From Anatilimnocola floriformis (GTDB lineage Bacteria; Planctomycetota; Planctomycetia; Pirellulales; Pirellulaceae): a stretch of DNA of 64,000 nucleotides. Under the pieces are notes generated by a model that was given only the letters and a program-made list of their open reading frames with translations, did not search any database and was not told where the DNA came from. Location of the stretch: the NCBI RefSeq assembly GCF_024256385.1, contig NZ_JAMLFW010000001.1:4712001-4776000 (forward strand), written 5' to 3'. The position numbers and the translations under genes were made by a program. Below are positions 1 to 21,779 of this stretch, piece after piece (the first letter of the stretch is position 1; each line of letters begins with the position of its first letter).

Positions 1-196
1 CGCGATTTCAAACGTCGAAGAGTAGGTGTCTAAATGCTGCGTCAAGTCAGGGTGCTTTGTTCGCGCAGGTTGTGGCCGCGCGCCTTGGAGTGTGTTGAGA
101 CAAGGCAAGTTTCATCGTCAATCTTCCAACGGGAATTGGGTGACTTTAGGTAGAGTTCGATTGCGAATGCTGCATTGACGCGAAGCGGCGACGGCG

Positions 197-304
197 CTAC
201 ACGCCGGGCATGTTTTTGACCAGCAGTTCCGCAGTAGCAAGGAACTGATCGGCCAAATGGAAAACGTGCTGGTCTGGCACTTCTGCTGGCTGGTCGTTTG
301 TCAT
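197..304 (-). CDS. 35-aa small ORF translationally coupled to the DUF5677-like gene
   Basis: A short open frame begins with an ATG at 304-302 that shares four bases (ATGA) with the stop codon of the upstream DUF5677-like reading frame, and ends with TAG at 199-197. The predicted peptide starts MTNDQPAEVPDQHVF and ends NMPGV. The ATGA overlap is the classic arrangement for translational coupling, which is the only real support; no family is recognised. It could be a chance frame. Confidence 0.35.
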   Translation of the reverse strand: MTNDQPAEVPDQHVFHLADQFLATAELLVKNMPGV

Positions 305-1208
305 TTTACGGCCGGAAAGCCTTTCAAGTATTCTGTCGCGATCTCGTCAACCGTCTTCTCACCTGCCTCCCCAAAACCGATCTGATTCTGAAGCACGCTC
401 ATGCAGCATAGAAAAACTTGGCAGGCCGCTGAAAGCGCCCCGCCGATTTCTTCCGGTGTCGAAAGCCACTGCGCGCCCACCTGCCCGCCTACGCTCCGGG
501 AATAGCGAATCCCGTCCGACGAATGCGCCGACCGTGAAAGGTAGTGATACATGGTTTCGTAGTACGTTTCGAGATTGTTTCCAAGGGCGTGCGCGAGGGC
601 CGCCAACTTCAGCCCGGAATACGTCCTTGGCTGATTTCTAAGGATATAGGACCACTCCGCGCCAAGCTCTCTTTCAGCGGCTGCGATATTCGCAGGGTCT
701 GGCTTAATCTCTTGCGCAGCTGCGCGTGGTCCTCGTGATGTTCCCATCTAGCGAAGCGGTTCTCATCATTGAAAACGTTGATCGCAAGATACATCGCGGC
801 CCGCTTCCGACTGGCTAGATTCGCGTCGATAGACTTCGTGGAAACTTTCCAGGCATCCGTTTTTCCCAGCACTGGTTCAAACCCCAAGTTCACACTTGGC
901 GCGAGTATCCACTGAAGCGCCACGGCAGTTTCGTAGATGCTGCGTGCCACAATTAGCGCGTTACCTGCTTCACAGGCTTCGCACAGCAAAATCACACTTC
1001 GCATCTGCCGGCAGGCTTGAACATTCAATGTCATTGCTACGCTGCCTGCCATCGGGTCGAGTTTCGACGCAAAAACGAATGGCTCTTTCGGCAAGTGCAT
1101 CCAAGCATCCCACATGCGATGCGCAAAATCGAAATCGCGGCCGACAGTCGCCTTTACGGTAGCCAAGTGTTCTTCAAAATCTGGAATTTCGCGCATAGTG
1201 TCCCTCAA
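301..1208 (-). pseudogene. DUF5677-like protein, broken by a frameshift near position 715
   Basis: Two overlapping minus-strand frames together look like one protein of about 300 residues. The first part (from 1208, starting MRDTMREIPDFEEHLAT) contains a helical stretch NALIVARSIYETAVALQWI typical of DUF5677-like proteins. The second part (to 301) carries the matching C-terminal half, with YSGLKLAALAHALGNN and YYETMYHYLSRSAHSS. The sensible protein passes from RWEHHEDHAQLRK in one frame to EIKPDPANIAAAE in the other within the overlap around 705-725, so a one-base indel is likely. It may be decay, a sequencing error or, less likely, programmed frameshifting. Function is unknown; such proteins often sit among defence or mobile genes. 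Confidence 0.6.
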
Positions 1209-1256
1209 CTAAAACGACACGGGGTTACCCCATAGGTTCACCGACGTCGCTAGAAA

Positions 1257-1874
1257 CTAACTGCGTTTCAGAAGCTCATCGGCTATGGCGAAGCCAGCCG
1301 AAGTCAGATTGCGAACTTGGCCCGAACGCGAAACCAGGTTGCGGTCTTCAAGCTCTTCAAGCGCTGCCTTGTACCGCTGTGCGGCGCGAGCATCGTCCGG
1401 GGCGTACAGTTTTTCCCGATGGCCGGGCGAGATGCTGAGCACTTCGTTTAGTACGTTATCAACAACGGAGATGACACCGGCGTGAACTCCCGGCACATTG
1501 GCTGCTTTGGTCAAGAGTTCTTCCGCCTCTTGCGAAAGAGGGGCCGGCGGCGCGGGCGCGTTCCAAGTCAGAACTACGGACTGCTGCCCGCCTGTCTTCC
1601 CTTCGGCAACCAACTTGAACCATTGGTCTCGCAGCTGCCGTAGTTCCTTCGCTCGATACTTGCGCCCTTTCGGGTGATTGTCATTGTATGAATTGACATC
1701 CGCGTGGCAGTCGAAGCAAACGGGCAACCCGTTGTCGGCAGTGTTCTCGCCGCCGTCCGCTTCCTGGTCGATATGGTGAATTTCCATTTTCTGCCCCTTG
1801 TGCTGGCGGCAGAGACAGCAGAAGCGGGCACACTTAACCAGCAATTCATCGACGACTCTGGCAGGGAATGGCAT
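1257..1874 (-). CDS. HNH endonuclease-domain protein
   Basis: This 205-residue protein has an HNH nuclease domain in its first 70 residues. A CxxC pair (CCLC, about residues 19-22) precedes the HH of MEIHHIDQ, an acidic/asparagine stretch (GGENTADNG) and a second CxxC (CFDC). The paired CxxC motifs bind structural zinc and the central histidines and asparagine bind the catalytic metal in this family, so a metal-dependent DNA nuclease is expected. The C-terminal 120 residues are helical with no recognised domain. It is island cargo between the broken DUF5677-like gene and the recombination module. The exact target is unknown. The start ATG is the first in frame. Confidence 0.75.
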   Translation of the reverse strand: MPFPARVVDELLVKCARFCCLCRQHKGQKMEIHHIDQEADGGENTADNGLPVCFDCHADVNSYNDNHPKGRKYRAKELRQLRDQWFKLVAEGKTGGQQSVVLTWNAPAPPAPLSQEAEELLTKAANVPGVHAGVISVVDNVLNEVLSISPGHREKLYAPDDARAAQRYKAALEELEDRNLVSRSGQVRNLTSAGFAIADELLKRS

Positions 1875-2153
1875 GACTTTGTTCTCCGGCCAGTGATTAT
1901 AGCGAATGGTGGGCGGCGTCTTATTCTGCCGTTGGAGGCCGCGCGGGCAGATAGAGATTTAGGGTGCGAAGCCGCTCAATCTTCGGTGACAACTGATTGC
2001 GGATTCACTGCTAGATGGAATTGGCGTGAGTGCGTGGTCAAGCGAACCCCCTGCTTGAGCAATTCGTTGCGATGCCTAAATGAGCGGGCAGGAATTTCGC
2101 GGCGGAAACTGGCGCCGCGATTACAGAATCTTCAGACTCTTCAAAAACTCCCT

Positions 2154-2402
2154 ATGAAAAAGAAAAAACATTCGTTGCGCGCCTCTCCGGCCCGTCTGGC
2201 GGAGGTTGCGTCAAACGCAAATTCCCATTCAATTGATGGGACTGACCTGCAGAAATCCCAACGGGAGCAAGCAGTCACGGCGCTCTTCGACTTAATTTGC
2301 AGATTGATTGCCGAAGCGATCCATCGAGACACTTCAGCGAATACCCCAACACAAAACCATGGTCAGAGCACGCATGGGCAAAAAACAAACAAAGCCACCT
2401 GA
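2154..2402 (+). CDS. Small conserved island protein (82 aa)
   Basis: A lysine-rich N-terminus (MKKKKHSLRAS) is followed by a short amphipathic helix, EQAVTALFDLICRLIAEAI. The same helix pattern occurs in the 86-aa protein at 18780-19040 of island B (EQQAIDGFLDLLARLIAKAH), so the two are probably homologues. In both islands the gene lies a few hundred bases to 1.3 kb upstream of an HTH protein and an integrase. This argues that it belongs to the mobility or maintenance module rather than the cargo. The longer in-frame extension upstream of 2154 shows no coding character. Its end overlaps the next gene. No function is recognised. Confidence 0.55.
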   Translation: MKKKKHSLRASPARLAEVASNANSHSIDGTDLQKSQREQAVTALFDLICRLIAEAIHRDTSANTPTQNHGQSTHGQKTNKAT

Positions 2403-3081
2403 GGAGCGGGCTGATCGGCCGCTTCCGCAGAACAAGCAGATTTTGGAGAGGCTTCTGGACACCGTCCAGCAATATTTGAAGGAACAGGACGCTTACATTG
2501 CCCGCCAACGGATTCGGCTGCATCAAATGCGGGATTGCCTGACGTCACCGGAATCGGCGCTCCGCAACCAAAGGAACATTCCCGAACTCCGTGACGTCGC
2601 GATTAGACAGGCGTCCAACGGCCTCGCGGATATCACCATTATTGAGCCTTACTTCCTCAACGGCCGAATCCGTGAACTTCAAGCGAACTTGGCGCGAACG
2701 TATGTCGAATGGGCAGATCGCCGTCTGGATGGGACGATCGCCTCAAATAGTCGATTCGAGCAGTTGCTAGCATTGACGGAAGAGTTTTTGGCGGAATATC
2801 GGGCGTTCCGTGATCGGCTCGTTGCGAAGCTCCAGAATAAGCGCGCGGACAACAATTCGGACATGCACAAGAAAATCGCTCGGATAATACCTGACGATCA
2901 AGTATTCATGGCATTCTATCGCGAGCTTGAGCAACGTCAGGGCGAGTCGTCGCAAAGGCGGATCGCACTTGACTTTACGGGTGGCAATGAGACCAGAGCG
3001 GACTCGATGCTGCGACAGTACCGACGGTTTAAAGTGAAACTAGCTGAGCAAGTCCGCGCGGACATTCAAAAGACCTCCTGA
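2359..3081 (+). CDS. Hypothetical helical protein (240 aa)
   Basis: This is a charged, mostly alpha-helical protein with likely coiled-coil segments (ILERLLDTVQQYLKEQ, FLAEYRAFRDRLVAKL). No catalytic motif, signal peptide or membrane segment is seen. Possible starts are ATG at 2308, 2359 or 2374. I chose 2359 because the coding pattern begins there and the overlap with the preceding small gene is then 44 bases, but no good ribosome binding site decides between them. It sits between the small conserved protein and the excisionase-like gene of island A, in the position where island B has different small genes. Function unknown. Confidence 0.6.
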   Translation: MVRARMGKKQTKPPEERADRPLPQNKQILERLLDTVQQYLKEQDAYIARQRIRLHQMRDCLTSPESALRNQRNIPELRDVAIRQASNGLADITIIEPYFLNGRIRELQANLARTYVEWADRRLDGTIASNSRFEQLLALTEEFLAEYRAFRDRLVAKLQNKRADNNSDMHKKIARIIPDDQVFMAFYRELEQRQGESSQRRIALDFTGGNETRADSMLRQYRRFKVKLAEQVRADIQKTS

Positions 3082-3130
3082 CAATCGCTTTGCTGAAATG
3101 CGTCCCCAGCGGCGAACCGCTGGAGGAAGC

Positions 3131-3457
3131 ATGTCAGACGAATTCGTCACGCCCGAAGAATTTGCCACGGTCACTAATCAAGGAATCGCGACCGTCTATC
3201 GCCGATTGCGAGCGGGTCAACTGCCTGCTCACCAATCTGGTGGACGGTGCAAGCGTTGGCTGATTGATCTCGTTGCGTTTCGCGCTCGATTCACTGGCGA
3301 AAGCAGTTCCTCGACCAACGATGGCGCCGCGCTCCCGCCGTCTGGCGGAAGTGTCAACTCGGGCACCGCTTCGCAATCCGCGGCGACTTCTTCGTCGCCG
3401 CCGCGTCCAGCATTGAACGGCCCACGGCCGCGCTGGACTACTCAAATCCGAAAGTAA
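3131..3457 (+). CDS. HTH (MerR/excisionase-type) DNA-binding protein of island A
   Basis: The start at 3131 is supported by a GGAGGA Shine-Dalgarno sequence a few bases upstream. The first 60 residues (MSDEFVTPEEFATVTNQGIATVYRR...) form a winged helix-turn-helix of the type found in excisionases and in helix_turn_helix_17 proteins: a threonine-rich helix turn, YRRLRAGQLPAHQSGG, then an arginine-rich wing. The C-terminal half is a serine/alanine-rich low-complexity tail. It lies 12 bases upstream of the integrase. The likely role is to bend DNA at att sites and bias the integrase toward excision, or to control integrase expression. This is inferred from domain and context. Confidence 0.7.
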   Translation: MSDEFVTPEEFATVTNQGIATVYRRLRAGQLPAHQSGGRCKRWLIDLVAFRARFTGESSSSTNDGAALPPSGGSVNSGTASQSAATSSSPPRPALNGPRPRWTTQIRK

Positions 3458-3469: not shown

Positions 3470-4678
3470 TTGAGCAAGAAACGAAAAACAAAGGAAAAGT
3501 TGCGCCTGCCGTTCTTTGTCTGGACGGTGCGCGATCGGGATGGTGTTTGGCAGGCTGACGGTCGTGGAAATACGGTTAACCCGGGGCGGCATTCGCTCGG
3601 TACTAAGGACTACGAGGAAGGGCTAGAGAAACTTCAACTACTCGACAAAGTGCAAGCCGTTGCACTCGGACTGGCAGACCCGTCGATACTCTCCCCCGGA
3701 ACAACCAAGTCGATCGCGCTGGACGCAGGGAAAGACATGTACCTAAAGCACGTTGCTCGCCCCTTCGTAGCTGGCGGCGGTGTTGACAAAACGCAGCAAC
3801 GTTATGAAGCAGTTCTGAACAAGTTTGTCCCCTGGGTCAAACTTGAGGGACTGGAATATTGGGAACACATCAAGCGTCGCCACCTCACGTCATATGCCGA
3901 CTGGCTGCTGGAAGGGGAATACGAATACGCAACTGTGTTTCTTGAATTGACGACGATCAAGCAGGTTTTCAATTATTTCATAAGGGAAGAGCTGTTGCCC
4001 GTTGAGTGCAAGATTCACATGCCGCTTCGGAAGCCATCGGGGACTAACACCTTCTGCTACACCAAAGAACAACTGACTGCGATGGCCGACCGCTGCTCTT
4101 CCCGGTCAGGTCTAGCTTGGCTCCGCGCCATCATTTGCGGACTATCGTTCACCGGTATGCGGATCTCGGAGCTAACCGGGCTAAGGCCGTCGGACGTTGA
4201 CTTGGACAAGAATATGATCACGCTGACCGACGAACGGTTCAATCGCACTGCGGCGCCCGGCACTGCCCGGCGTATGAAGAACAGCCGGAATCGGTCGTTC
4301 CCTATTCACTCTCAGTTACTCCCGATTATCGCCCCGTTGGTTAAGCGCGGCGCCAGCCGGGTATTCACTGGACCGGATGGCCAGAAAATCAGCGGTGATG
4401 CAGTTCGACTTGCATTCGTGAGCGAAGTAATTGATCCGCTGAGCGAGAAGTATCCGAGCGGCGAGGATGAAATCGGGTTCAAAGATGGCCGATTGCACAG
4501 CTTTCGTCACTATTTTTGTTCGCTGGTCGCGAACGCCGGTGTGAGCGAATTGGCTGTCATGCGGTGGCTGGGCCACGGCAGCAGTCTGATGGTCAAACAC
4601 TATTACCATCTGAACGACCCAGAGTCGCAACGCCAGATGGAAAAGGTCGATTTCAAATTCGGGAGTGAGGCAGAGTAG
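3470..4678 (+). CDS. Tyrosine recombinase (integrase) of island A
   Basis: This is a 402-residue phage-type integrase. The C-terminal catalytic domain shows the expected residues: the box I arginine in FTGMRISELTGL (about residue 228), HxxR in LHSFRHYF (about 342), LGH (about 367), and the nucleophilic tyrosine in KHYYHLND (about 377). The N-terminal part is a SAM-like core-binding domain (about 90-190). The start codon appears to be TTG at 3470, giving MSKKRKTKEK. The gene ends 172 bases before the att copy at 4851, the usual place for an island integrase, and follows an excisionase-like gene. It probably recombined the tRNA-Ser 3' end. It looks intact. Confidence 0.9.
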   Translation: MSKKRKTKEKLRLPFFVWTVRDRDGVWQADGRGNTVNPGRHSLGTKDYEEGLEKLQLLDKVQAVALGLADPSILSPGTTKSIALDAGKDMYLKHVARPFVAGGGVDKTQQRYEAVLNKFVPWVKLEGLEYWEHIKRRHLTSYADWLLEGEYEYATVFLELTTIKQVFNYFIREELLPVECKIHMPLRKPSGTNTFCYTKEQLTAMADRCSSRSGLAWLRAIICGLSFTGMRISELTGLRPSDVDLDKNMITLTDERFNRTAAPGTARRMKNSRNRSFPIHSQLLPIIAPLVKRGASRVFTGPDGQKISGDAVRLAFVSEVIDPLSEKYPSGEDEIGFKDGRLHSFRHYFCSLVANAGVSELAVMRWLGHGSSLMVKHYYHLNDPESQRQMEKVDFKFGSEAE

Positions 4679-4757: not shown

Positions 4758-4842
4758 GTCACAGTCTCGTCACAGTTTACTGTGACGAAAAAACCGGCTG
4801 TTCCGAAACCATTGCAAAGCAATGAGTTAGAAACAGCCGGTT
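4758..4842. repeat. Palindrome cluster between integrase A and the att core
   Basis: GTCACAG occurs at 4758-4764, then CGTCACAG-TTTA-CTGTGACG forms a perfect palindrome (4768-4787). An 11-bp inverted repeat, AACCGGCTGTT (4792-4802) with AACAGCCGGTT (4832-4842), encloses a second hairpin CATTGC-AAA-GCAATG (4810-4824). These may be integrase or accessory-factor binding sites at the island end, and the outer stem could also end transcription of the integrase. Confidence 0.6.
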
Positions 4843-4850: not shown

Positions 4851-4875
4851 CGGAGAGGACAGGATTCTATCCTGC
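4851..4875 (+). repeat. att site: displaced copy of the tRNA-Ser 3' end
   Basis: CGGAGAGGACAGGATTC (4851-4867) is identical, in the same orientation, to the 3' end of tRNA-Ser(GCU) at 21691-21707. Five more matching bases (CCTGC) follow after three mismatches. No tRNA body follows, so this is a duplicated target and marks the junction between islands A and B. Confidence 0.85.
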
Positions 4876-4995
4876 CATTTTTCGCAACCTCGGCTCACAG
4901 CAAGGTTTGGCACTTAACCTCAGCGACAGTCGCAATTTAGCGTCTGCCGCTCACTCCCGTTCATTCCCAGTTATTCCCACTCATGCAGGACAGCA

Positions 4996-5016
4996 ACCGG
5001 GACAAAACCGGGACAA
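4996..5016 (+). repeat. Left-end candidate integrase arm site (two ACCGGGACAA copies)
   Basis: Two ACCGGGACAA units are spaced by one A, and the 21-base block is repeated exactly at 21595-21615. It lies 128 bases inside the left att core. In the circular form it would sit on the opposite side of the core from the other block. Confidence 0.55.
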
Positions 5017-5056
5017 ATTTCCGATCGCAACTTACGCAATACTATTTTCACTCGCG

Positions 5057-7573
5057 ATGCTCGCCAGTGCTTTGGCAGGCGGACCGCCTGCTGGTGATTC
5101 CGATGAGGCGGAAGCGGATCGGCGGCCACGTCGCCGCAAGCAAAAGGATCGTGCGTCTCGCGGACTTCCAGATCGTGCTGCGGCAATGGCCCTTGCTGAG
5201 GCATATATGGAAATTCAAGGCCGGCTATTCCCTAAGTTGGTGCAGTTGGGTGTGATTCCTCGCAAATCTAAAGCTGAAGTCGAGCGTTTAGCAACGGCCT
5301 TTGAGCAGCGGTTTTTAAAAGCGGATGTTCAGCCCGAAGCTCTCTTGCTCCACAGCCGACATTGGGAGCAATTGGCAGCTTGCTACTTGCGGTATTCGTG
5401 CGACAAATCGAATCCGAGGTCACTGGTTCAACAGCTGAAGTTGACTCTCGAACGTGCCGCTGCGAATAAGCACTTCATCCCTTGGCAATTCGTCTTCGCC
5501 GATGCTGCCGTAACCGGAACAACCGCAGACAGGCACGGGTACGAACTGGCAAATTTGCAGATGGCTTCCACCGCAGCAGATTCACCAGTTGTGCTATACA
5601 TCGACGAGATTGGCCGTGCTAGTCGTGATATGGTCGAGGCCCTGCGCCTTGGCCGAATGATCGACGCGATGGGCAAACGCCTAGTTGGGGTCAGCGATGG
5701 ATTCGACAGCGATCACCAAATGTGGAAGTTCGTTTTGTCAATCTTTGCTGCTCTGCAAGAGTGGTTCATCGACCAGCTGAAACCCAAAGTAAAGCGGGGC
5801 ATGCGTGATGCTCACCGGCAGGGAACAAATTTGCGGCCAGCTGCCGTTGGCTACAAGTTAGTCCCTGCAGTCGACGCCACTGGAAGCCCCATATTCGGCA
5901 AGGACGGCGTGCGATCGAAGATGCTTGCCGTCGACGAGAAAACTATGCCGTACATCCAGTTGGCATTCAATCTCTACGTCACCCAGAACTGGAGCCTGGG
6001 GCGTATTGCTCGACACTTGAATGACCTCGCGGTCATCGGATGCACTTGGGACAGCAGCCGCGTGCGGCAACTTCTGGGGCGCTACAAATACGCGGGAATT
6101 GATGTCGAAGACATGACCTACCGCGCCGAACAACTTGACGAAAAAGGACGTAAGAAATATGTGATCAAGAGAAACCCACGGGAGAAATGGAAGGTCCGGC
6201 GCGCCCGCAACCTGCAAATCATCCCATGGTCGGTATGGAAGGCCGCACAGCGGCGGCTGGAGCTCGCGAAGAACGCATACTCCAAGTCATCCAGTCGTAC
6301 GACGCGACGGGATGAAGTTAATGCGACCACACTCGTCCGGCCACTATGTGGTGGTTGTAAGAAACCCCTGTGGCTCGGCCGGGCCGGCAAACACGCGAGC
6401 TTTACCTGCACTGATGCACGGGATGGCAAAAACGGTTGCACGTTTCGGGGCTACAAGACGGTGAGGCACGTCGAGAACGCCGTTGTGAACTACGTGCTCA
6501 ACAAAGTGCTCACTCCAACGCGGGTGAATGAGCTCGTCGAACGTGCAAACCAATATCTGATCGAGCAATCGGAGGCACCTCGAGTCGATACAACGGCTTG
6601 GGAGACCGAAATTGCAAAATTGTCGGCAGGGTGCAAGCGACTTGCCAAGGTACTGGCCAATGAAGACGACGATCAGAAAATGGGCGCAGTTGTTGCTAAG
6701 CTACGGCAGGATGAACGCCGCCTCGCGGAACTTCGGGCTATGGCGCGGGACGCTAAACGATCTAGCGACATACCTGCCCGGCTGTGCACAACGCAGGTGC
6801 TGGAACTCATCAAGGATGTCTCCACACTCCTCCAAAGTGAAGTGCAAATTGCAGCACCGCTTCTGCGCCAGCTGACGGGGCCCATAACCCTTCTGCAGGA
6901 GAAGCAAGAGGGCAAGTCTAAGCCTGCCTGGTTTGCCTGCTTCACCTACAATCTGCTGCCTGTGCTGCTGCAAATCTCGCGGAATGGCAATTGTCCAACT
7001 ACGAGCACTCTGGAGTACCTGACTACTCATGGTTGGACAAACGCAGAATCCGCGAAATTCCCGCTCGACGTAGAGCGAAAGGCAGACGTTATCGCTGCCA
7101 AAGTCGCGGAGCTGGTGGCCGAAGGCCACAGCACTGATACGATCGCAGCGGTGCTCGGCGTCAGCTCGCAGGTCGTCCAGGAAGCCCGCACGGGCCGGAA
7201 ACGTGCTCGAGGCCCCCGTGGCAAAACGGCTGGTGAGACTGCGAAAGCGCCGCGCACAACCTTTCACGATCTCGTTGCGCCGCTCAAAGCACTTCTCGTT
7301 AAAGAGCCGGGCACGTCGATTTCGGAGGCGGCGCGGCGCCTCGGGTATTGCGAGGCAACCGTGCGTTGCGCGTATGACGCCGCCTTTCCCGAAGTGATCG
7401 AGAAGGCCCGCGTGGACGGCGCTCCACCGCAACGAAGCAATCGCTCGCGGCTCAGCAAGCAGGAGATCGAGCGCGTCAAGGAGTTATTGAGAAAAGGCGT
7501 GCCGATCTACGAGATCGAAGCGGAAATTGGTTGCAGCCGGCAAACCGTCTATCGGATCAAGTCGAAGATGTAA
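5057..7573 (+). CDS. Large serine recombinase
   Basis: The resolvase-type catalytic domain begins about residue 108 with the nucleophile motif YLRYSCDK (Ser about 114), followed by VFADAAVTGTTADRHGYE and DEIGRASRDM. A recombinase domain follows, then a zinc ribbon (CGGC near residue 430, with later cysteines), and a coiled-coil region. The C-terminus has up to three HTH-like units, for example EGHSTDTIAAVLGVSSQVV and KGVPIYEIEAEIGCSRQTV. The 110-residue segment before the catalytic domain is unusual, since the nucleophile normally lies near residue 10. The open frame extends up to 4907, but that part covers the end repeat at 4996, so I place the start at 5057 or later. It may mobilise a separate element or provide a second mobility route. 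Confidence 0.8.
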   Translation: MLASALAGGPPAGDSDEAEADRRPRRRKQKDRASRGLPDRAAAMALAEAYMEIQGRLFPKLVQLGVIPRKSKAEVERLATAFEQRFLKADVQPEALLLHSRHWEQLAACYLRYSCDKSNPRSLVQQLKLTLERAAANKHFIPWQFVFADAAVTGTTADRHGYELANLQMASTAADSPVVLYIDEIGRASRDMVEALRLGRMIDAMGKRLVGVSDGFDSDHQMWKFVLSIFAALQEWFIDQLKPKVKRGMRDAHRQGTNLRPAAVGYKLVPAVDATGSPIFGKDGVRSKMLAVDEKTMPYIQLAFNLYVTQNWSLGRIARHLNDLAVIGCTWDSSRVRQLLGRYKYAGIDVEDMTYRAEQLDEKGRKKYVIKRNPREKWKVRRARNLQIIPWSVWKAAQRRLELAKNAYSKSSSRTTRRDEVNATTLVRPLCGGCKKPLWLGRAGKHASFTCTDARDGKNGCTFRGYKTVRHVENAVVNYVLNKVLTPTRVNELVERANQYLIEQSEAPRVDTTAWETEIAKLSAGCKRLAKVLANEDDDQKMGAVVAKLRQDERRLAELRAMARDAKRSSDIPARLCTTQVLELIKDVSTLLQSEVQIAAPLLRQLTGPITLLQEKQEGKSKPAWFACFTYNLLPVLLQISRNGNCPTTSTLEYLTTHGWTNAESAKFPLDVERKADVIAAKVAELVAEGHSTDTIAAVLGVSSQVVQEARTGRKRARGPRGKTAGETAKAPRTTFHDLVAPLKALLVKEPGTSISEAARRLGYCEATVRCAYDAAFPEVIEKARVDGAPPQRSNRSRLSKQEIERVKELLRKGVPIYEIEAEIGCSRQTVYRIKSKM

Positions 7574-7988: not shown

Positions 7989-8717
7989 TCAGTAACGCCA
8001 ATCCTCATGTGCTAGCGGAGCACGATTCAGTTCGTCGCGGTGAACTCGCCAATGAGGCAATTGTTCATCCATAATCGCGCGAAACCGGTCGTTGTGGTGG
8101 CGTTCCAGGAGATGAACCATTTCGTGGACAAGAATGAACTCGAGGCACGCCTGCGGCTTCTTCACGAGCTCGAGGTTCACCCATATTCGCCGCGCCTCGA
8201 TATTGCATGTCCCCCAGCGCGTTTTCATTTTCTTGATGCGGACCTCGTCAATCGTCACGCCGAGCCGGGGCTGCCACTTGGCAACGAGGTCTGGCAGCTG
8301 CTCCCGCAAACGCTGGCGGTACCAACGCTGTAAAACCGCATCTCTTGTCGACTGGTCGGAACCTGCGCGTGTCCGCAGCACCAAGGTCGTGTTGTTCAGG
8401 ACCTCGACCGACGAAGGACCCTCATGTTCGACCACGTCGAGAAGGTAGCGGCTGCCCTGGAAAAAATGGCTTTCGCCGGTCACGACTTCACGTTGCGACT
8501 GCCGATCCTGATGCTGAAAGCTCTGCTGCTGGCGCCGAATCCAACCCAAACGCGACACGACGGCAAGCCGAATTGCATCGTCATCGAGATGCAGCGGCGC
8601 CGCCACCCGCACGCGGCCCGCAGGCGGATATACACCGACGTGCAGGTTCTTAATGTCCTTGCGGAGAACCTCAACCGGAATGTCGCGCACTTCGATGACT
8701 TGTCGTTCAGTAGTCAC
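7989..8717 (-). CDS. YgjP/M48-like metallopeptidase (DUF45) linked to the type I RM operon
   Basis: The zinc-binding HExxH motif is clear in VHEMVHLLERHHNDRF, followed by a downstream glutamate region, as in the YgjP-like/DUF45 family. The upstream beta-rich part includes VRIKKMKTRWGTCN, the conserved RWGTC signature of this family. The GTG at 8717 overlaps the hsdR stop by 11 bases; an upstream in-frame ATG at 8747 is an alternative. Coupling to hsdR suggests co-expression. Family members are often encoded next to type I restriction genes, but their job there is not settled. Regulated proteolysis of a restriction subunit is an inference only. Confidence 0.8.
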   Translation of the reverse strand: MTTERQVIEVRDIPVEVLRKDIKNLHVGVYPPAGRVRVAAPLHLDDDAIRLAVVSRLGWIRRQQQSFQHQDRQSQREVVTGESHFFQGSRYLLDVVEHEGPSSVEVLNNTTLVLRTRAGSDQSTRDAVLQRWYRQRLREQLPDLVAKWQPRLGVTIDEVRIKKMKTRWGTCNIEARRIWVNLELVKKPQACLEFILVHEMVHLLERHHNDRFRAIMDEQLPHWRVHRDELNRAPLAHEDWRY

Positions 8718-11808: not shown

Positions 11809-13587
11809 TTAGCCGAACAGCTTCCGGCAGGTTTCGATCGCCGTGGCAATATTGGAATCTGCAAAGACGGTCCGGTCTAGCTTCGCCCGCCACTCGGCAT
11901 TGCCCTGGATCACCTGTTTGACTCCGCTGACATCAATGGGCTTGCCGGCGACGCGCAGTTCTTCCGCGGCCATGTCCACTGTGGCCAGCAATTCCAGGTC
12001 ATCGTTCTTCTTGTAGCGAAAGTTAGTCAACAACCACTGGAGCGCCGCCGAGCCGTACCACTTTTCAAAATACGCTTCTGCCTGGGTAATGTTCTCGCCA
12101 GCGACGAAACCGCCATGGACGCCTGATTGGTGCTCTCGCACGTAGCTGTTTTTCAGAGCAATCTTTTCCGCACCGCCGTATTTGGTCTGTGGGTTGTACG
12201 GACCGGCAGCCATTTTCAGATACCCCTCTACCTGCTGCTCGGAGTGGCGATGCAGCAAGTACGAGAGCTTCGTGTATCGCTTCCGCCCGAGCGGAAACTG
12301 CTCGCTGCCGAAGTGCTTAGCCAATACGGAGATGACGACGGCCTCGTTGATCTGCTTGTTGTGCCCCTTCGCGGTCTTGGCGTTGGTTGCCTGCTCTTTC
12401 CGCTTCATCAGGCGAATGCGGCCGGTTAGTAGCTGCTGCATCATGCCCTGCCTAATTCGCTTCGCCTTGTCGCTACGGCGCTCCAATGATTCGATCTCGG
12501 CTTCCATGTCGGATAGGACCACCGCGATGGCATCCTGCTCGTTAGTCGGAGGAAGTAGGACTTCTACTTGCGCTAAGTTTCGGGCACTGATATGCACCAC
12601 TGCGTCGCCCTGCGCGAGTCGCGCCTTCTGTCGCGCAACCGACGGGTGATTCATCAGGTGGCCGAGATACAGTGAGTTGTGCCCCTGGGGCGATAGCACC
12701 ACAATGTCGCCGCCGGCATAGGCCGTCTGTTCTCCGAGATAAGCTGCACAGCGTCCGATCTCTTCTGCCGTCTCGCCGGAGCCCGCAAACAGCAGATCTC
12801 CGGTTTTGATGGGCAGAGATTGTTGTGCGACTTGATTCGGGATTCTGGACGACGGCACAATCACATAGTCGCGGTAACGGGTGTAGAGTTCGCCATAGCG
12901 AACGCATGGAACGCCTTCATCGGTCACATCGTCTCGCTTAATTCCGCGCCCCTTCGAGAACTCACCTATCTCTCCAAGCTGCATCACTTCCCACTTGCCG
13001 ATGAAGCCCGGCAGGCGGATTTTGCCGGTGAGGAGTTGCTGCATCGCGGCCAGCTTCATGTCGCGCTTCTTCCGAGTTAGCGCCTCCAACGCCCCGATCA
13101 ACCGGTCGACATCCGCCAAAGCCTCCGCGATGGCGGGTTGCTCGTCGCTGCATGTCGGAATTGGCAGTTGCTGATTGAGAACGTCTGAGCGAGACAATCC
13201 AGGAATCAGCCCTGTCGCGGCGGCCTTGAACTGCGTAGCATTCTGCAATAACGAGTAGAACAAGAACACTGCATTCCAAGTCAACGGCCGAATGGCCATT
13301 AGCTGCCTGCTGATGCAATACTCCCTATCAGCGACAATAAGTGTACCTGCCCCCGAACCCTTTACCGTTACCAATATGTCGCCCGCCCGACATATCGTCG
13401 TTGGCTTCGTCGTGAACTTCGTCTGCTGAATCCGCCCGTCCGGAAAATCTGCCGGCCCCGTCAAATACGGAGTACCTACTCCATGCGTATTGCAATGGCG
13501 CGCCAAGACATGATGGCCCGAAAATAGCTCGATGTCGTCCCCGACTGGCCTAGACTCCCATTTGTCGAGACTTGTATTCGGTTTCAT
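11809..13587 (-). CDS. hsdS: Type I RM specificity subunit HsdS with a C-terminal extra domain
   Basis: The start at 13587 is fixed by an ATGA overlap with the hsdM stop; a longer open frame upstream lies inside hsdM. The 592-residue protein has two target-recognition domains separated by the conserved helical spacers, with RKKRDMKLAAMQQLLTGKI after the first and RIRQGMMQQLLTGRI after the second. Residues from about 394 onward (MKRKEQATNAK...) form a further domain of about 199 residues not needed in classical HsdS. It includes RYTKLSYLLHRHSE and GYLKMAAGPYNP, which resemble Panacea/SocA-like antitoxin folds. An internal ATG at 12408 lacks a ribosome binding site, so a fusion is favoured. Confidence 0.9.
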   Translation of the reverse strand: MKPNTSLDKWESRPVGDDIELFSGHHVLARHCNTHGVGTPYLTGPADFPDGRIQQTKFTTKPTTICRAGDILVTVKGSGAGTLIVADREYCISRQLMAIRPLTWNAVFLFYSLLQNATQFKAAATGLIPGLSRSDVLNQQLPIPTCSDEQPAIAEALADVDRLIGALEALTRKKRDMKLAAMQQLLTGKIRLPGFIGKWEVMQLGEIGEFSKGRGIKRDDVTDEGVPCVRYGELYTRYRDYVIVPSSRIPNQVAQQSLPIKTGDLLFAGSGETAEEIGRCAAYLGEQTAYAGGDIVVLSPQGHNSLYLGHLMNHPSVARQKARLAQGDAVVHISARNLAQVEVLLPPTNEQDAIAVVLSDMEAEIESLERRSDKAKRIRQGMMQQLLTGRIRLMKRKEQATNAKTAKGHNKQINEAVVISVLAKHFGSEQFPLGRKRYTKLSYLLHRHSEQQVEGYLKMAAGPYNPQTKYGGAEKIALKNSYVREHQSGVHGGFVAGENITQAEAYFEKWYGSAALQWLLTNFRYKKNDDLELLATVDMAAEELRVAGKPIDVSGVKQVIQGNAEWRAKLDRTVFADSNIATAIETCRKLFG

Positions 13588-16052
13588 ACCCACACCAATC
13601 CCATATTCGTTAGGTGGGTCTGAACTTTCCGACCGAAGTCTTTGGCCTCCATTTCTAAATCGGGCAGCCGTTTGGTATAGCGCGATTCCAGGTCCCGAAC
13701 CCGACCAGTAAGCCTCTGCGTTAGCCGTTGAACCTCGTCGTTGATGGCCGCTTCGATGCTGACGAGCCATTTATCTTCGACGACCAACGCCTTGATCTCG
13801 GCTTCCGAGAGCTTTGCGTATTTCGCCAGCACCTGCTTGTCGAGTTTGTCCTGTGCTTCCTTGACCGCCTTTTTGATGAGCGACTCCGTATCGAGCAGCT
13901 TGCCGCACATTTCCAACGCCTTGTGTTCCTCAGCGAACTCCGGATCGTCGCCGATCGCCTTGAGCCGAGCGTTCACGTTCGTCTTGGTCGCCTTGCCCTT
14001 GTCGTTAACGGCGTCTTCAAGCAGGCCTTCCTCACCGGTGTGCTCTTCGACGAACTCTTCCAACATGCGGGTGGCTTCTTCGAGCTTCGATTGAGCGTCG
14101 TCGATCGCCGCCTGCTCCGCCGCAAAGTAGCGGGCGACGATGACCGCGGGCGGAATTAGATCCATCTTGTACTTCTTGCGTTTCTTCTGCGGACCGATGA
14201 CCAAGTCAGGCGTCTCCGTGATCTTCCGTTCTTTGTCGTCAATGGCTGCCCGCGGCTGCGCGGCTTCCACCCAGCCGTCCGCGGCAATGAGGTAAACGTC
14301 GTCCTGCATCACTTCGGCCCAGTAATCCGTGAGCCGCTGATAGACGTCGTACCGACTCAGCAGCGGCACATCGGCGAAGCGTGCGAGCAAATCTTCCGAC
14401 AGCGTATGAATCACCTGCTTGGGAAGATCGTCGATCTTGATGCTCTTGAGCAACGGCTGATGGGCTTTCCGCCACTTGCGAACAATCTCGGTGATCGTGC
14501 CGGAATACTCTTGGAACTCTTCGTGAGCGAGTATTGCCGCCTTCACTTGCTGCGTTTCGACGCGAGGCTCGCTGTAGCCTTTGCGACCGTTGGTCTTAAA
14601 CAACGCCTTGCGGAGCGAGGGGAAGTTTTTCCAGTAGGCCTCCAGGCCGTCGATATCGCGGTTGGGGATTCCGCCATTGAGGTGGGCATCGAGGTCGTGC
14701 AGGTCTTCCTGTTCGGTCGAGTCGATGTAGCGGGGAATGTTGAGGTTGTACTCGTTGGCAGGATTGGCGATCTCGCTCACCGGCACCATGCGAGCGTAGT
14801 TCGGCAGTTCGCGCTGGTGGTTGAACACGTCCACGATCTTATGGATGTCCTGGGCGCGGAGGCGGTTCTTGTTGCCCTCTTTGATGTAGCCCTTGGACGC
14901 ATCGATCATGAAAATGCCGGTGCGGGCGTTAGCGTGCTCCTTGTCGATTACGATGATGCAGGCCGGGATGCCGGTGCCGTAAAACAGGTTCGGCGGCATG
15001 CCGATGACGCCCTTGATCAAACCGCGCTGGATGAGGTTGCGGCGAATGTCGGCTTCCTTGTTGCCGCGGAACAGCACGCCGTGCGGCAGAATGATCGCAC
15101 CTTTGCCCTTGCTCTTGAGCGACTTGATCAGGTGCAGCAGAAAGGCGTAGTCGCCGTTCTTGATTGGCGGCATGCCGTACTCGAAGCGTTCGAACTCATC
15201 GTTTGCCGGGTTGAGTCCGTTGGACCAAGCCTTGGATGAGAAAGGTGGATTGCTTACGGCAAAATCGAATGACTTCAGACTGCCGTCTTTGTTCTTGAAG
15301 TGTGGATCAGCAAGTGTGTTGCCGCGCCACAAATCGGCCGTAGGATGGCCATGCAAGTGCATGTTCATCCTGGCGAGCGACCATGTGGCGTTATCCATTT
15401 CCTGGCCATAGATCGCCAAGTTGCTCGCGCCCGACTCGTCTGCGGCTTTGATAAGCAGGGACCCCGATCCGCAGGTCGGGTCGTATGCTGTTGGGTCCCT
15501 AAGCTTCGAAGCATGTTCGATGCCGATGACCTTCGCCATAATTCGAGAGACTTCGGCAGGGGTATAGAACTGCCCCTTGCTTTTGCCCGATTCGGTAGCG
15601 AAGTGACGCATCAGGTATTCATAGGCATCGCCGAGTAGATCATCGCCCTCGGCACGGTTGGCGCGAAAGTCGAGCCCGTCGAAAATTGCGACCAGCTTCG
15701 ACAGCTTATCTTGCATGTCCTTGCCGCGGCCGAGCTTATCTTCGTCGTTGAAGTCGGGGGCCCGGCCGGGCATCAGGAAGTCCAGATCGTTCGCCTTGGC
15801 AAGGGCGCCAATGACCTTGTTGATCTTGTCGCCAATCTCTTTATCGCCCTTGAGCTTCACCATGTCGGCGAAGCTGCCGCCGCGTGGCACCTCGATCACG
15901 GCGTCCTTCTTGCCGGCGTATTTGTCCGACACGTATTTCATGAACAGCAGCGTGAGGACGTAGTCTTTGTACTGCGAGGCATCCATGCCACCGCGGAGTT
16001 CATCGCAGCTTTGCCAGAGCGAGCTATAGAGTTGCGTCTTCTTTAGAGCCAT
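13584..16052 (-). CDS. hsdM: Type I RM N6-adenine methyltransferase HsdM
   Basis: The conserved N-terminus MALKKTQLYSSLWQSCDELR marks the likely start at 16052; an upstream ATG at 16121 adds 23 atypical residues. The SAM-binding motif I is DPTCGSGSLLIKA (about residue 191) and the catalytic NPPF is in AVSNPPFSSKAW (about 267), as in N6-adenine methyltransferases. At 822 residues it is much longer than the usual 500-residue HsdM. The extra C-terminal part is lysine/glutamate-rich coiled coil (EEATRMLEEFVEEHTGEEG and onward) that may contact HsdS. It is the first gene of the hsdM-hsdS-hsdR operon and overlaps hsdS by four bases. Confidence 0.93.
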   Translation of the reverse strand: MALKKTQLYSSLWQSCDELRGGMDASQYKDYVLTLLFMKYVSDKYAGKKDAVIEVPRGGSFADMVKLKGDKEIGDKINKVIGALAKANDLDFLMPGRAPDFNDEDKLGRGKDMQDKLSKLVAIFDGLDFRANRAEGDDLLGDAYEYLMRHFATESGKSKGQFYTPAEVSRIMAKVIGIEHASKLRDPTAYDPTCGSGSLLIKAADESGASNLAIYGQEMDNATWSLARMNMHLHGHPTADLWRGNTLADPHFKNKDGSLKSFDFAVSNPPFSSKAWSNGLNPANDEFERFEYGMPPIKNGDYAFLLHLIKSLKSKGKGAIILPHGVLFRGNKEADIRRNLIQRGLIKGVIGMPPNLFYGTGIPACIIVIDKEHANARTGIFMIDASKGYIKEGNKNRLRAQDIHKIVDVFNHQRELPNYARMVPVSEIANPANEYNLNIPRYIDSTEQEDLHDLDAHLNGGIPNRDIDGLEAYWKNFPSLRKALFKTNGRKGYSEPRVETQQVKAAILAHEEFQEYSGTITEIVRKWRKAHQPLLKSIKIDDLPKQVIHTLSEDLLARFADVPLLSRYDVYQRLTDYWAEVMQDDVYLIAADGWVEAAQPRAAIDDKERKITETPDLVIGPQKKRKKYKMDLIPPAVIVARYFAAEQAAIDDAQSKLEEATRMLEEFVEEHTGEEGLLEDAVNDKGKATKTNVNARLKAIGDDPEFAEEHKALEMCGKLLDTESLIKKAVKEAQDKLDKQVLAKYAKLSEAEIKALVVEDKWLVSIEAAINDEVQRLTQRLTGRVRDLESRYTKRLPDLEMEAKDFGRKVQTHLTNMGLVWV

Positions 16053-16197
16053 TGAACCGCTTACCTGCTCGACCTGGGTTTTACCGCCCGCCGATGCCGC
16101 CGTCGGATGCGCTGCAAACAAAAGTTCGGCATTCTAGCGAATGTCAGCCGGTTAAAACAGCTTGCCGATCATGACCGGCGGTTGCGGATCAGATTAA

Positions 16198-16770
16198 TCA
16201 GACTTCGCGCCGCATCGAGCGTCTCGCCGATCTCGCCACAGACACGATCCCGCTCAGATGGCCAACAAGGCGATTAACGCCGACGTTGAACAGCTCCCTG
16301 GGAGCGGCACCAGCTGGAGGTTCCATGTACGTTTTCCGATGCCATTGAAGAGAGCGTGCCCAGCCTTTGATGGGCTCTTCATCGAAGGACGCAATCAGAT
16401 CATGGGCGAATCGGTTTCTGATCTTGCCCACCAGCCGCAAATCGTCGCGCACCATTTTGCCGATGAGGCCAAGGCAGTAAAGCGTTCGGATCCGATTCCC
16501 ATACGACCCCAGGGGTTGGTCGTACTGGAGCAGCGCGTCAACCTCTTTCTCATCGTCAACCAGGAAGTTACGGACGATGTGCTCGAGCTGCGTATCCAAA
16601 AACGAGGCACCGACGATGACCATCGCGCGATCATTCGATTCTTGTGCGAACAGTCTCGAAAATTCGACCAGTGCCATTTCGAGGTTGAAGTGACGATCAA
16701 GATCTTTCCCGACGATTAGCGGAAAAATTGAATTGTCCTGGTCTCGATCGAACTCGCTTGGAAGTGACAT
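16198..16770 (-). CDS. MtlR-like helical protein
   Basis: The pattern AMVIVGASFLDTQLEHIVRNFL ... LLQYDQPLGSYGNRIRTLYCLGLIG ... IRNRFAHDL matches the MtlR (mannitol repressor)-like superfamily, which is all-helical and has the terminal RN.FAH signature. Most members outside enterobacteria have no tie to mannitol and no proven DNA binding. Here it lies 77 bases upstream of the longer hsdM frame and reads in the same direction, so it could be the first gene of the restriction operon. Its function in this island is unknown. Confidence 0.7.
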   Translation of the reverse strand: MSLPSEFDRDQDNSIFPLIVGKDLDRHFNLEMALVEFSRLFAQESNDRAMVIVGASFLDTQLEHIVRNFLVDDEKEVDALLQYDQPLGSYGNRIRTLYCLGLIGKMVRDDLRLVGKIRNRFAHDLIASFDEEPIKGWARSLQWHRKTYMEPPAGAAPRELFNVGVNRLVGHLSGIVSVARSARRSMRREV

Positions 16771-19870: not shown

Positions 19871-19920
19871 CCTACTTGTAGGAAAAAACCACTGGATCCG
19901 TTACTACTTGTAGGTATAAT
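19871..19920 (+). promoter_or_regulatory. Promoter with two palindromic operators upstream of the excisionase-like gene
   Basis: CCTACTTGTAGG (19871-19882) and CTACTTGTAG (19904-19913) are copies of one palindrome with centres 32 bases apart, about three helical turns. The second touches a perfect -10 box TATAAT (19915-19920). No good -35 box is visible, so activation or repression at these sites is likely. The excisionase-like protein itself is a natural candidate to bind them. Confidence 0.6.
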
Positions 19921-19962
19921 GCTCGTGTGAGAGCTGTTATTCCGGAAGCAGTGGAGATCGAA

Positions 19963-20223
19963 ATGAAGCGAAAGCGGAACCGCAAGCCGATGCCGAAGTT
20001 GACTCAGGACGAAATCAATTCGACATTTGGTTCAGCTCGTGGAATACTCCAGACGCATGAACTGGCCGAATTGCTCGGCCTGAAAGTGCGTACCATCTAC
20101 GAGTGGGTAGCGCGTGATTATCTCGAAGGCACCTACCAAACTCGCGGCAAGTACCATTTTTTCTGGCGCGATCGCGTCATCAAGAAGCTCTTCAACGGTA
20201 CGGAATGGCAGACGCCATCCTAG
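19963..20223 (+). CDS. HTH (MerR/excisionase-type) DNA-binding protein of island B
   Basis: The TATAAT box ends at 19920, so translation should start well downstream of the first in-frame GTG (19927). ATG at 19963 has GGAG at the proper spacing and gives 86 residues. The core ILQTHELAELLGLKVRTIYEWVARDYLEGTYQTRG is a winged HTH of the excisionase/MerR type. It lies 67 bases upstream of the integrase, matching the layout of island A, although the two HTH proteins are only distantly similar. It probably controls excision direction and possibly its own promoter. Confidence 0.75.
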   Translation: MKRKRNRKPMPKLTQDEINSTFGSARGILQTHELAELLGLKVRTIYEWVARDYLEGTYQTRGKYHFFWRDRVIKKLFNGTEWQTPS

Positions 20224-20290: not shown

Positions 20291-21439
20291 ATGTCCAACA
20301 AAGGAGACCGGCTGCTAGTCGGTGAACGGGTCAAGATCTACAAGCGGGGCCGCAAGCAAACATGGACGGCCTGCTTCTACTGGGGCGGAAAACACCACCG
20401 GGTGTCGCTCAGGACAAGGAACGAGAAAGCTGCTCGCAGACAAGCAGTCGCCCTCGAAGCCGAACTCATCGAAGGTGAATACAGGCCTTCTCGCCAGGTT
20501 ACGAAAGAGGCTTTGCCGCTCGTAACGGTTGCGCAAGCCAAGGATGAATATCTTGCATTCAAGCGGAGCGGGAAGTTCCGGAAGAAGTCACAGGACAAGT
20601 ACACCTCCGCCATCCGCGAGTTTCAGATGTTCTGCGACGGAATCGGGACGAAGCACATCGCGGATGTCACCCTTCGGATCTTTGATCGCTATCGGGCTAA
20701 ACGATCGGCGGAGCGAGCTGAAAAGACGGTTCATACCGAGCTCGTAATCCTCAAGGGCTTTTTCAAATGGTGCGCCGAGCGCAAGTTGGTCACCGAGGAT
20801 CCGCTTGCCAACGAAACATTTGTAAAGCCGAGGTCTAAGCCAAAGGGCTCGCCTGACTTGATGCAAGTGAATCAAGTCCTTAGCCAGTTCACCGGTCCGC
20901 GACTCGTCGCGTTGAGCATCTTGGCATTCACAGGAATGCGGGCCGGCGAGTGCCAGCGTCTCCGATATGACCTCGGCGACGTTGATCTCGATGGCAACTG
21001 GATACACATTGTTTCTCGCGAGGGCGAGGACAAGACGAAGTCCGGCGATTCGTGGAAAGTGCCGATCCATCCGCGACTCAAAAAGTTGCTTGAAATAATT
21101 CCGAAGAGCAAACGGACTTGGTTTCTAAACGCGCCGCCGAGTCGGCAGTACCCAAATGGCGATCACCGCCACAACATGAAGCACCTGACCGAAGCGTTTG
21201 AGGAAGCACTCGGGAAACTCGATATCCCGGCGGGCCGCAAGAACAACGGGTTTGTGCTGCACAGTCTTCGTGCGTTTTTCAAGACGCACTGTGTGAACGA
21301 AGGAATCCCAAGAGAAGTCGTTGACGCGTGGCAGAACCACAAGGACGGACGCCGGGAAACGGCGAGCGACCGCTACTACCGCTTAAGCGATGAAGAATCT
21401 CAGAAGCAAATGAAGAAAGTCCCCTTCGGGGACGGCTAA
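20291..21439 (+). CDS. Tyrosine recombinase (integrase) of island B
   Basis: The 382-residue integrase has an N-terminal AP2-like arm-binding region with TWTACFYWGGKHHRVSLRTR, a SAM-like core-binding domain (about 75-170), and a catalytic domain. Active-site residues are the arginine in FTGMRAGECQRL (about 216), HxxR in LHSLRAFF (about 322), the histidine in WQNHKDGR (about 350), and the tyrosine in DRYYRLSD (about 361). It lies 250 bases from the tRNA-Ser 3' end and points toward it. It is intact and is the likely driver of island B integration and excision. Confidence 0.92.
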   Translation: MSNKGDRLLVGERVKIYKRGRKQTWTACFYWGGKHHRVSLRTRNEKAARRQAVALEAELIEGEYRPSRQVTKEALPLVTVAQAKDEYLAFKRSGKFRKKSQDKYTSAIREFQMFCDGIGTKHIADVTLRIFDRYRAKRSAERAEKTVHTELVILKGFFKWCAERKLVTEDPLANETFVKPRSKPKGSPDLMQVNQVLSQFTGPRLVALSILAFTGMRAGECQRLRYDLGDVDLDGNWIHIVSREGEDKTKSGDSWKVPIHPRLKKLLEIIPKSKRTWFLNAPPSRQYPNGDHRHNMKHLTEAFEEALGKLDIPAGRKNNGFVLHSLRAFFKTHCVNEGIPREVVDAWQNHKDGRRETASDRYYRLSDEESQKQMKKVPFGDG

Positions 21440-21594
21440 GCCGGCGGCCAAAGTGCCGGCATTTTTCGTTTGGAGAAGTTAGATGGTAATTCGTTTCTGG
21501 GCGAGCGGCCTAATTGCCGCCGCCCTTGTTGTCGGCATAGTATCGCCGACTCGCAGCGCAAGTAACCGTGGCGCTAATCATCCCGAGGTCAGCG

Positions 21595-21615
21595 ACCGGG
21601 ACAAAACCGGGACAA
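21595..21615 (+). repeat. Right-end candidate integrase arm site (two ACCGGGACAA copies)
   Basis: This is an exact copy of the 21-base block at 4996-5016, in the same orientation. It lies 75 bases inside the att core at the tRNA. Confidence 0.55.
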
Positions 21616-21690
21616 GTCAGTGGTCCCAAAACAGCCGAAGCTCGCAAGGCGTTGCTTCACAACACGTTGCGAGCTTCAACAAGTCGCTAG

Positions 21691-21715
21691 CGGAGAGGAC
21701 AGGATTCGAACCTGC
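21691..21715 (+). repeat. att site within the tRNA-Ser 3' end
   Basis: CGGAGAGGACAGGATTC (21691-21707) plus CCTGC (21711-21715) match 4851-4867 and 4871-4875, 22 of 25 positions in all. It covers the acceptor stem and T-arm of the intact tRNA gene. Confidence 0.85.
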
Positions 21716-21779
21716 GGTACGGTTTGACCCGTACACCGGTTTAGCAAACCGGCGCTTTCGACCACTCAGCCACCTCTCC
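21691..21779 (-). tRNA. tRNA-Ser(GCU)
   Basis: The acceptor stem GGAGAGG/CCTCTCC with discriminator G, D-arm GGCTGAGTGGTCGAAAGC, anticodon stem CCGGTTTGCTAAACCGG with anticodon GCT, long variable arm GTACGGGTCAAACCGTAC, and T-arm GCAGGTTCGAATCCTGT are all present. The long variable arm is typical of serine tRNA. CCA is not encoded. The 3' end faces the islands and was rebuilt by the integrated DNA, so the gene stays functional. Confidence 0.97.

Follow-up and report, generated by a model that had tools for sequence, protein, structure and literature searches.

Predicted tandem integrase-att units at tRNA-Ser(GCU) of Anatilimnocola floriformis, with an island framed by recombinases of two superfamilies

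How did one serine tRNA gene of the planctomycete Anatilimnocola floriformis come to stand at the end of a row of integrase genes, and what holds each unit of that row together? The question arises from a 64,000-nucleotide (nt) stretch of contig NZ_JAMLFW010000001.1 (assembly GCF_024256385.1), here called the window, which is C1:4712001-4776000 of the source genome (G000; 8.93 Mb, 17 contigs). An earlier interpretation (the sequence-only reading) had proposed two genomic islands inserted in succession at tRNA-Ser(GCU), each ending in its own integrase and attachment (att) site. Our analysis makes it highly probable that the region is a tandem array that arose as tyrosine integrases repeatedly inserted elements at the 3′ end of tRNA-Ser(GCU), with a two-recombinase frame. 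The features on which the argument first depends are, in window positions:

21690..21779, minus strand: tRNA-Ser(GCU), the integration target (ARAGORN)
21691..21707, plus strand: att1, the tRNA-proximal core of island B, found by sequence match
4851..4867, plus strand: att2, the core that island B shares with the IntA unit; 25 nt with 2 mismatches
20291..21439, plus strand: tyrosine integrase IntB, 382 amino acids; PF00589 at 2.6e-10, phrog_1 at 1.3e-42
3470..4678, plus strand: tyrosine integrase IntA of the next unit outward, 402 amino acids; PF00589 at 4.1e-20

The 17-nt 3′ end of the tRNA gene, CGGAGAGGACAGGATTC, occurs at 21691-21707 and again, on the same strand and without a mismatch, at 4851-4867, just as the sequence-only reading had it. 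There is no further site in the window even if 3 mismatches are allowed, a setting at which 1 of 100 shuffled windows gave two or more matches, and the repeat lengthens to 25 nt if 2 mismatches are tolerated. That reading also placed a full tyrosine integrase before each copy, and both genes match the Pfam Phage_integrase family (4.1e-20 and 2.6e-10). When IntA and IntB were aligned with related integrases, the R, K, HxxR, H, and Y positions, which we take to be the tyrosine-integrase catalytic motif, were conserved (one truncated row lies outside the conservation line).

Genome-wide, CGGAGAGGACAGGATTC has three exact copies, all on a single strand, at C1 4639902, 4716851 (window 4851), and 4733691 (window 21691). 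The reversed core, used as a control, has 0 copies, and a 15-mer of the core with one mismatch yields a single extra site, elsewhere and on the opposite strand. A third copy beyond the left edge of the window had been suggested as something to look for; it was found at G000:C1:4639902, 77 kb left of 4851, on the same strand and again 3′ of an integrase, IntC (405 amino acids). IntA, IntB, and IntC are the only three integrase-family matches listed within C1 4.23-5.39 Mb, and no tRNA gene was found in C1 4630000-4719999. Since the three att copies lie on one strand and each follows an integrase, the locus is, as far as the sequence can be interpreted, a tandem array of at least three integrase-att units. 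The displaced tRNA fragments are co-oriented, as in tandem tRNA islands, and each unit has its own integrase and fragment (the outermost, unit C, is without a far-side fragment). The G+C content is 55-57% in the first 24 kb of the window versus mostly 58-60% rightward. Repeated insertion at one tRNA gene with an integrase per unit therefore held up, and the stack exceeds what had been claimed, with 3 att copies here, 3 in a genome of the same genus (G053), and 4 in a genome from another family of the order (G373).

The unit nearest the tRNA gene, island B, is the best defined. Both the serine recombinase adjoining its tRNA-distal att and a terminator-like hairpin at the integrase-side att had been overlooked earlier. 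Its two ends carry:

4907..7573, plus strand: large serine recombinase at the tRNA-distal end, in an 888-amino-acid frame; PF00239 at 3.5e-15, PF07508 at 5.2e-12, phrog_95 at 5.4e-41
4987..5016, plus strand: arm-type-like repeat on the serine-recombinase side, with a period-11 layout as in G373
19927..20223, plus strand: helix-turn-helix (HTH) excisionase-like protein directly upstream of IntB; weak HTH_17/excisionase matches below curated cut-offs
21586..21615, plus strand: arm-type-like repeat on the integrase side, 93% identical to 4987-5016

Arm-type sites of tyrosine integrases sit on the island side of the core. The 30-nt repeat AGGWCAGCRACCGGGACAAAACCGGGACAA does so at both ends of island B (4987-5016 and 21586-21615), and its 21-nt center is found at these two places only in the whole genome at up to 3 mismatches. 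The real start of the 888-amino-acid frame is probably downstream. With matching ends and open frames for both recombinases, the sequence supports island B as a coherent unit of 16,840 bp; coordinate subtraction gives the same length as had been predicted for its circle. Two similar 20-nt repeats (19868-19887 and 19900-19919, 32 nt apart, the first copy palindromic) lie directly upstream of the HTH excisionase-like gene and look like operators.

From this arrangement we infer how the element might move. IntB, aided by the upstream HTH protein, would bind the arm-like repeats and recombine the two 17-nt cores, which would free a 16,840-bp circle and leave the tRNA body intact. The order on the circle would be HTH gene, tyrosine integrase, hairpin, attP, and serine recombinase, so that the two recombinase genes would flank attP. 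They might then represent a single recombination module, split on integration. Conceivably, the serine enzyme might act on the circle, in multimer resolution, as a second integration route, or in directionality, and binding at the arm site just upstream could perhaps control its gene. The cargo between the recombinases, here a type I restriction-modification system, would be freely exchanged.

On the integrase side, an insertion would also restore the tRNA 3′ end together with a terminator, by way of a hairpin. Two candidates are present:

21637..21677, minus strand: terminator-like hairpin and, reading away from the 3′ end of the tRNA, a T-run after it
4792..4842, minus strand: terminator-like hairpin and T-run adjoining att2

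A script detected a stem-loop with a T-run at 9 of 9 cores on the integrase side in G000, G053, and G373, and in folding analysis 6 of 6 integrase-side hairpins had z-scores of -4.0 to -9.6; the outermost G373 core has no such hairpin. Our reading is that the hairpin serves as a putative replacement terminator for the tRNA transcript, that is, a normal feature restored and no mark of islands.

The units outward of island B are less regular. Their features within the window are:

3098..3457, plus strand: HTH excisionase-like protein upstream of IntA; phrog_575 at 4.4e-6
4758..4786, plus strand: arm-type-like repeats at the IntA end, with GTCACAG in two direct copies and an inverted one
1..3081, strand unspecified: cargo of the IntA unit within the window; DUF5677-like, HNH, and unknown proteins

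To the right of core 4639902 lies another serine recombinase frame, of 651 amino acids and unlike the 888-amino-acid one. The integrase-side repeats follow one plan, two direct and one inverted, with different motifs: GTCACAG for IntA, TAGTCNCA for IntC, and TTGTCCCAGT for the pair of D integrases in G053. Across the sequence that we examined (336 kb of G000 and 420 kb of G053), the paired arm patterns were found beside att cores only, and, even with 2 mismatches allowed, the 18-nt direct pair of the IntA end occurs just once in the genome. The 77-kb interval is mixed in this respect: its left end (4639902) is of the type paired with integrase D in G053, and its own IntA has different arm-like sites.

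The same-genus genome, G053, carries cores at 1977960, 2175710, and 2272353 of the same tRNA gene. Its outermost unit is orthologous to unit C, the integrases being 86% identical (matched only from residue 149), and at the inner cores two D integrases, 91% identical to each other, replace IntA and IntB; occupancy is thus variable between G000 and G053. When 20 kb from the middle of the 197-kb G053 interval were compared with G000, almost nothing matched: one stretch of 1.05 kb and three of less than 70 nt. Common to the 77-kb interval and G053 are about 10 kb beside the third att copy (att3) and a separate 12-kb block, with weaker single-gene matches besides.

A replicate of the stack was found in G373, at a tRNA-Ser gene (C1:1195525-1195614) that we took as GCU (its anticodon was not printed by the script, and its 3′ end has the same core). 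Cores at 1024712, 1048753, 1146837, and 1195526 mark off three elements, 24.0, 98.1, and 48.7 kb long. Every one has a serine recombinase at its left end and a tyrosine integrase at its right; no integrase was found within 65 kb to the left of the outermost core. Elements 1 and 3 have serine recombinases that are 96% identical and integrases that are 90% identical, and at 1e-12 their open reading frame (ORF) matches are limited to these two genes and three ORFs near the integrase. The two recombinases are all that was found to be common to island B and elements 1 and 3. (For island B and element 3 the ORF sets began inside the core and omitted the serine recombinase frames, which were compared separately.) Directly after the serine recombinase of element 1, on the opposite strand, is an extra integrase-like gene (G373:C1:1027709-1028812, locus L176).

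If the frame is general, it should turn up at other tRNA genes, and we checked this in G000. The genome has 19 serine recombinase family matches, 10 with frames of at least 500 amino acids, of which 8 are outside the locus; for 2 of these 8, an integrase lies no more than 130 kb away, on the same strand and in the order predicted. (Eleven recombinase-integrase pairs were listed, 6 of them within the tRNA-Ser(GCU) locus and one on opposite strands; two sub-cut-off integrase matches were left out.) The pair at C1:3688543/3599101, in which the integrase is 89 kb off, has a 22-nt direct repeat beside both genes, where the next longest repeat is 12 nt and control windows give 11 nt. One copy covers the 3′ end of tRNA-Ser(CGA). 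The element, of 90.4 kb, has the same layout as the island B frame. A pair on C2 was tried as a second case and rejected, having no convincing repeat (longest 12 nt).

Across these elements the recombinases appear in consistent combinations. The 888-amino-acid type pairs with IntB-type integrases (island B and G373 elements 1 and 3), and the 651-amino-acid type with IntA/C/D-type integrases (G053, the 77-kb interval, G373 element 2, and the tRNA-Ser(CGA) element). Identity matrices of the two enzymes over 7 elements are correlated (Mantel r 0.83, p 0.0065; r 0.55, p 0.042 with a near-duplicate removed). In the 651-type class, 7 left ends from 6 genomes have in common a TCTCA-containing stretch and a palindrome near TTGTCCCACTGGGACAA. 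The TTGTCCCACTGGGACAA-like palindrome lies upstream of the recombinase gene, some 145 nt away from the core, and may be both a distal arm site and a control site of that gene.

As the anatomy of several elements, not all, the sequences support a frame in the order att, serine recombinase, cargo, tyrosine integrase, att. Tentatively, and with more doubt than conviction, we propose that these represent a planctomycete element class with a module drawn from two recombinase superfamilies, in which the tyrosine integrase and large serine recombinase would adjoin across attP in the circle and take opposite ends of the island once integrated. The pair, not the cargo, would define such an element, and the serine recombinase would act on the circle or the stacked array, circularization reconnecting and maybe switching on its gene.

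We surveyed relatives in two ways. A pattern search for the exact core found it in 77 of 241 genomes of the family, as 65 single, 9 double, and 3 triple occurrences. The 12 multi-copy genomes hold 27 core copies, 16 of them without a tRNA gene, and at 7 of these 16 (two each in G000 and G020, one each in G053, G032, and G058) a serine recombinase frame opens beside the core, on its right. The test at the 16 copies was similarity to the two known recombinases, so distant serine recombinases may have been missed; G373 stands outside the count, as it was found via the serine recombinase search. That second search, with the island B enzyme, gave matches in 30 of 396 genomes of the order at 1e-60. 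Among 28 loci of the enzyme and its relatives that we examined (L197 and L203 were left out), the core lies beside the recombinase in 3, in G000, G373, and G258 (a third family); no integrase was recognised near the core-adjoining recombinase of G258. The sequence-only reading had looked to relatives for empty and singly occupied sites, and this fared unevenly: 65 of the 77 core-holding family genomes are single-copy, but no empty site was seen in the genus, where the one other genome searched was occupied too. At the same core, L158 (G020:C55), L126 (G048:C63), and L172 (G058:C70) have other integrase-like genes in the opposite orientation, perhaps a third integrase type that uses tRNA-Ser(GCU).

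Several findings weigh against repeated insertion of two-recombinase elements as the full account. Nine of the 16 non-tRNA copies have no serine recombinase alongside (G122, one of the nine, offers only ~370 nt of flank), and 25 of the 28 recombinase loci are without this core (the upstream flank is short in some), from which it follows that the serine recombinase gene also lives in other settings. The other 7 of the 8 outside serine recombinases in G000 do not add another confirmed case: in one the order is right but no repeat is convincing, in one the order is wrong, and 5 have no integrase within 130 kb. The co-variation of the two enzymes derives from 7 elements in 3 genomes that were picked because both ends were known. 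Hairpins were scored at 25 of 31 cores overall, tRNA sites without a visible integrase included, and were missed at 6 (the 31-core scan had no shuffle control). For unit C, the outermost, a left att was looked for without success. The 12-kb block common to the two Anatilimnocola genomes lies left of att2 in G000 (C1:4677509-4689881) and right of att2 in G053 (C1:2146653-2160666); simple outward stacking is thus not the whole history, and the unit order appears to have been altered through insertion at an inner att or by rearrangement. Finally, between the 77-kb interval and the G053 element the serine recombinases are 82% identical and the integrases only 40%, so recombinase pairs can be broken.

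Taken with the mismatch of arm-like sites, this discordant pair points to replacement of the right-hand part of the 77-kb interval. We accordingly dropped the 77-kb unit as one simple element after the arm comparison and the identity table. Of the two islands originally proposed, then, island B stands as a coherent unit, and it is doubtful that island A is a single unit, as its two ends differ in type; it is probably a composite. It is not a proven one, because elements E2 (G373) and F likewise have left and right arm-like sites that match just approximately. As a left boundary for unit C we considered G000:C1:4591953, the only 3-mismatch core in 216 kb, which has no adjoining serine recombinase match; it was not used because, by our own estimate, ~0.5 such sites are expected.

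These irregularities are the ground for the strongest alternative, that the array is a fossil in which the att copies record past insertions and the units, the 77-kb one included, have decayed or merged and are immobile. Unit C without a left att, IntC matched in G053 only from residue 149, and the mismatched ends of the 77-kb unit are all as it would have them, and for the outer units it overlaps with stacking by insertion. As an account of the whole array we judge it unlikely, in that island B has both recombinase frames open and arm repeats matched at both ends, and the two species have different occupants at their inner two cores.

We think it improbable that the serine recombinase is what inserts the island at the tRNA gene, with the tyrosine integrase as a passenger. 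Serine integrase genes usually lie beside att, and the gene here starts beside the distal att, a position that would fit a serine-integrase element. Identity over 17 nt and a position at the 3′ end of a tRNA gene are, however, typical of tyrosine integrases, and both argue against insertion by the serine enzyme, as does the variation of the arm-like repeats at the integrase end from integrase to integrase. A parallel in its favor, in the available part of the source, is the Dehalococcoides ssrA islands, which stack at a 20-bp repeat with a serine recombinase adjoining attL (PMC3146451). A chance repeat or assembly artifact is scarcely credible: 17 nt is short and one 3-mismatch site occurs elsewhere in 216 kb, but there are exactly three exact copies, on a single strand and each following an integrase, and G053, G373, and G020 present the same picture.

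Tandem insertion by tyrosine integrases remains our preferred explanation. The surroundings of the tRNA gene in relatives were also examined. The gene to the right of tRNA-Ser(GCU) is presumably an M28-like peptidase. Among 80 peptidase loci scanned (from two overlapping sources, with at least 3 contigs counted twice), tRNA-Ser(GCU) was found at 50, its linkage with the right-hand peptidase kept, and at least 15 of these 50 have integrase-like frames left of the tRNA gene, a lower bound because many left flanks are short. No common chromosomal left neighbor was found in these relatives, integrases being the commonest. In L073, an exact second copy of its own tRNA end lies 774 nt left of tRNA-Ser, just 3′ of an integrase and less than 1 kb from the tRNA gene; we read this as marking a very short or collapsed unit.

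The interior of island B is occupied by the following genes:

7989..8747, minus strand: YgjP-like metallopeptidase; PF01863 at 1.2e-57
8707..11793, minus strand: HsdR, type I restriction subunit
11809..13770, minus strand: HsdS specificity subunit; PF01420 at 6.5e-22
13584..16121, minus strand: HsdM, type I methyltransferase; PF02384 at 1.9e-100
16198..16770, minus strand: MtlR-like protein; PF05068 at 4e-6
17376-18209, 18343-18783, and 19359-19844, plus strand: three ORFs without assigned function; no Pfam, PHROGs, or PADLOC match

All of the R, M, and S subunits of a type I restriction-modification system are thus present. The HsdS frame has ~200 surplus C-terminal residues that resemble the C-terminal part of the antitoxin DarG (NF048014, 2e-4, below the cut-off), possibly an HsdS-DarG-like fusion in the 11809-13770 frame. 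Neither a relaxase nor a conjugation gene was recognised among the scanned proteins of island B or among those ORFs of the 77-kb interval that were scanned, and Pfam revealed no capsid, terminase, or tail gene in island B. For 6 island B proteins, PHROGs gave solely integration, DNA-binding, regulatory, or unknown families, apart from a weak match of the HTH region of the serine recombinase to terminase small subunit (3.4e-5). Viral contigs contained no close relative of IntB or the two serine recombinases. Relatives in phages are remote only (7 records, with integrases 20-26% identical to IntB), and 41 plasmid records match the island B serine recombinase remotely, at 21-25% identity in the ten rows shown.

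Pairing of a tyrosine with a serine recombinase offers a simple signature with which to find more planctomycete elements. If the pair cooperates, two unrelated recombination mechanisms would share a single attachment region, a case open to testing, and cargo such as restriction-modification systems would be exchanged within a natural frame with two ends. Among the matches listed in a check of literature titles and abstract openings, none describes a tRNA island with a tyrosine integrase at one end and a serine recombinase at the other, and the frame looks like an undescribed variant of tandem tRNA islands; the evidence for novelty is weak because the check rested on titles and abstract openings.

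The stack at tRNA-Ser(GCU) itself is real and of a known kind. The tandem tDNA islands of Islander, as set out in the available portion of that article (PMC4383910), similarly comprise a tRNA gene, co-oriented displaced 3′ fragments, and an integrase gene per unit, and its Table 1 has 125 tandems of 2 or more and only 4 of 3 or more, so that by this one database paper stacks of at least three complete islands at one tRNA gene are rare. The definition given there is without a far-end serine recombinase, which the island B frame has. Tandem accretion of integrative and conjugative elements (ICEs), integrative and mobilizable elements (IMEs), and cis-mobilizable elements (CIMEs), in the accessible part of its account (PMC5704250), likewise has distantly related integrases using one target; island B differs from these in having no relaxase or conjugation gene among its scanned proteins and in pairing recombinases of two superfamilies. 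With type I restriction-modification defense islands island B has in common hsdR, hsdS, and hsdM plus a YgjP-like gene, and by that comparison its cargo is ordinary and only the surrounding frame unusual. The ssrA islands of Dehalococcoides also form a stack marked by a 20-bp repeat of an RNA-gene 3′ end, with a serine recombinase beside attL; according to the sections of that report at hand (PMC3146451), their module consists of two serine recombinases, whereas the units described here add a tyrosine integrase at the RNA-gene end.

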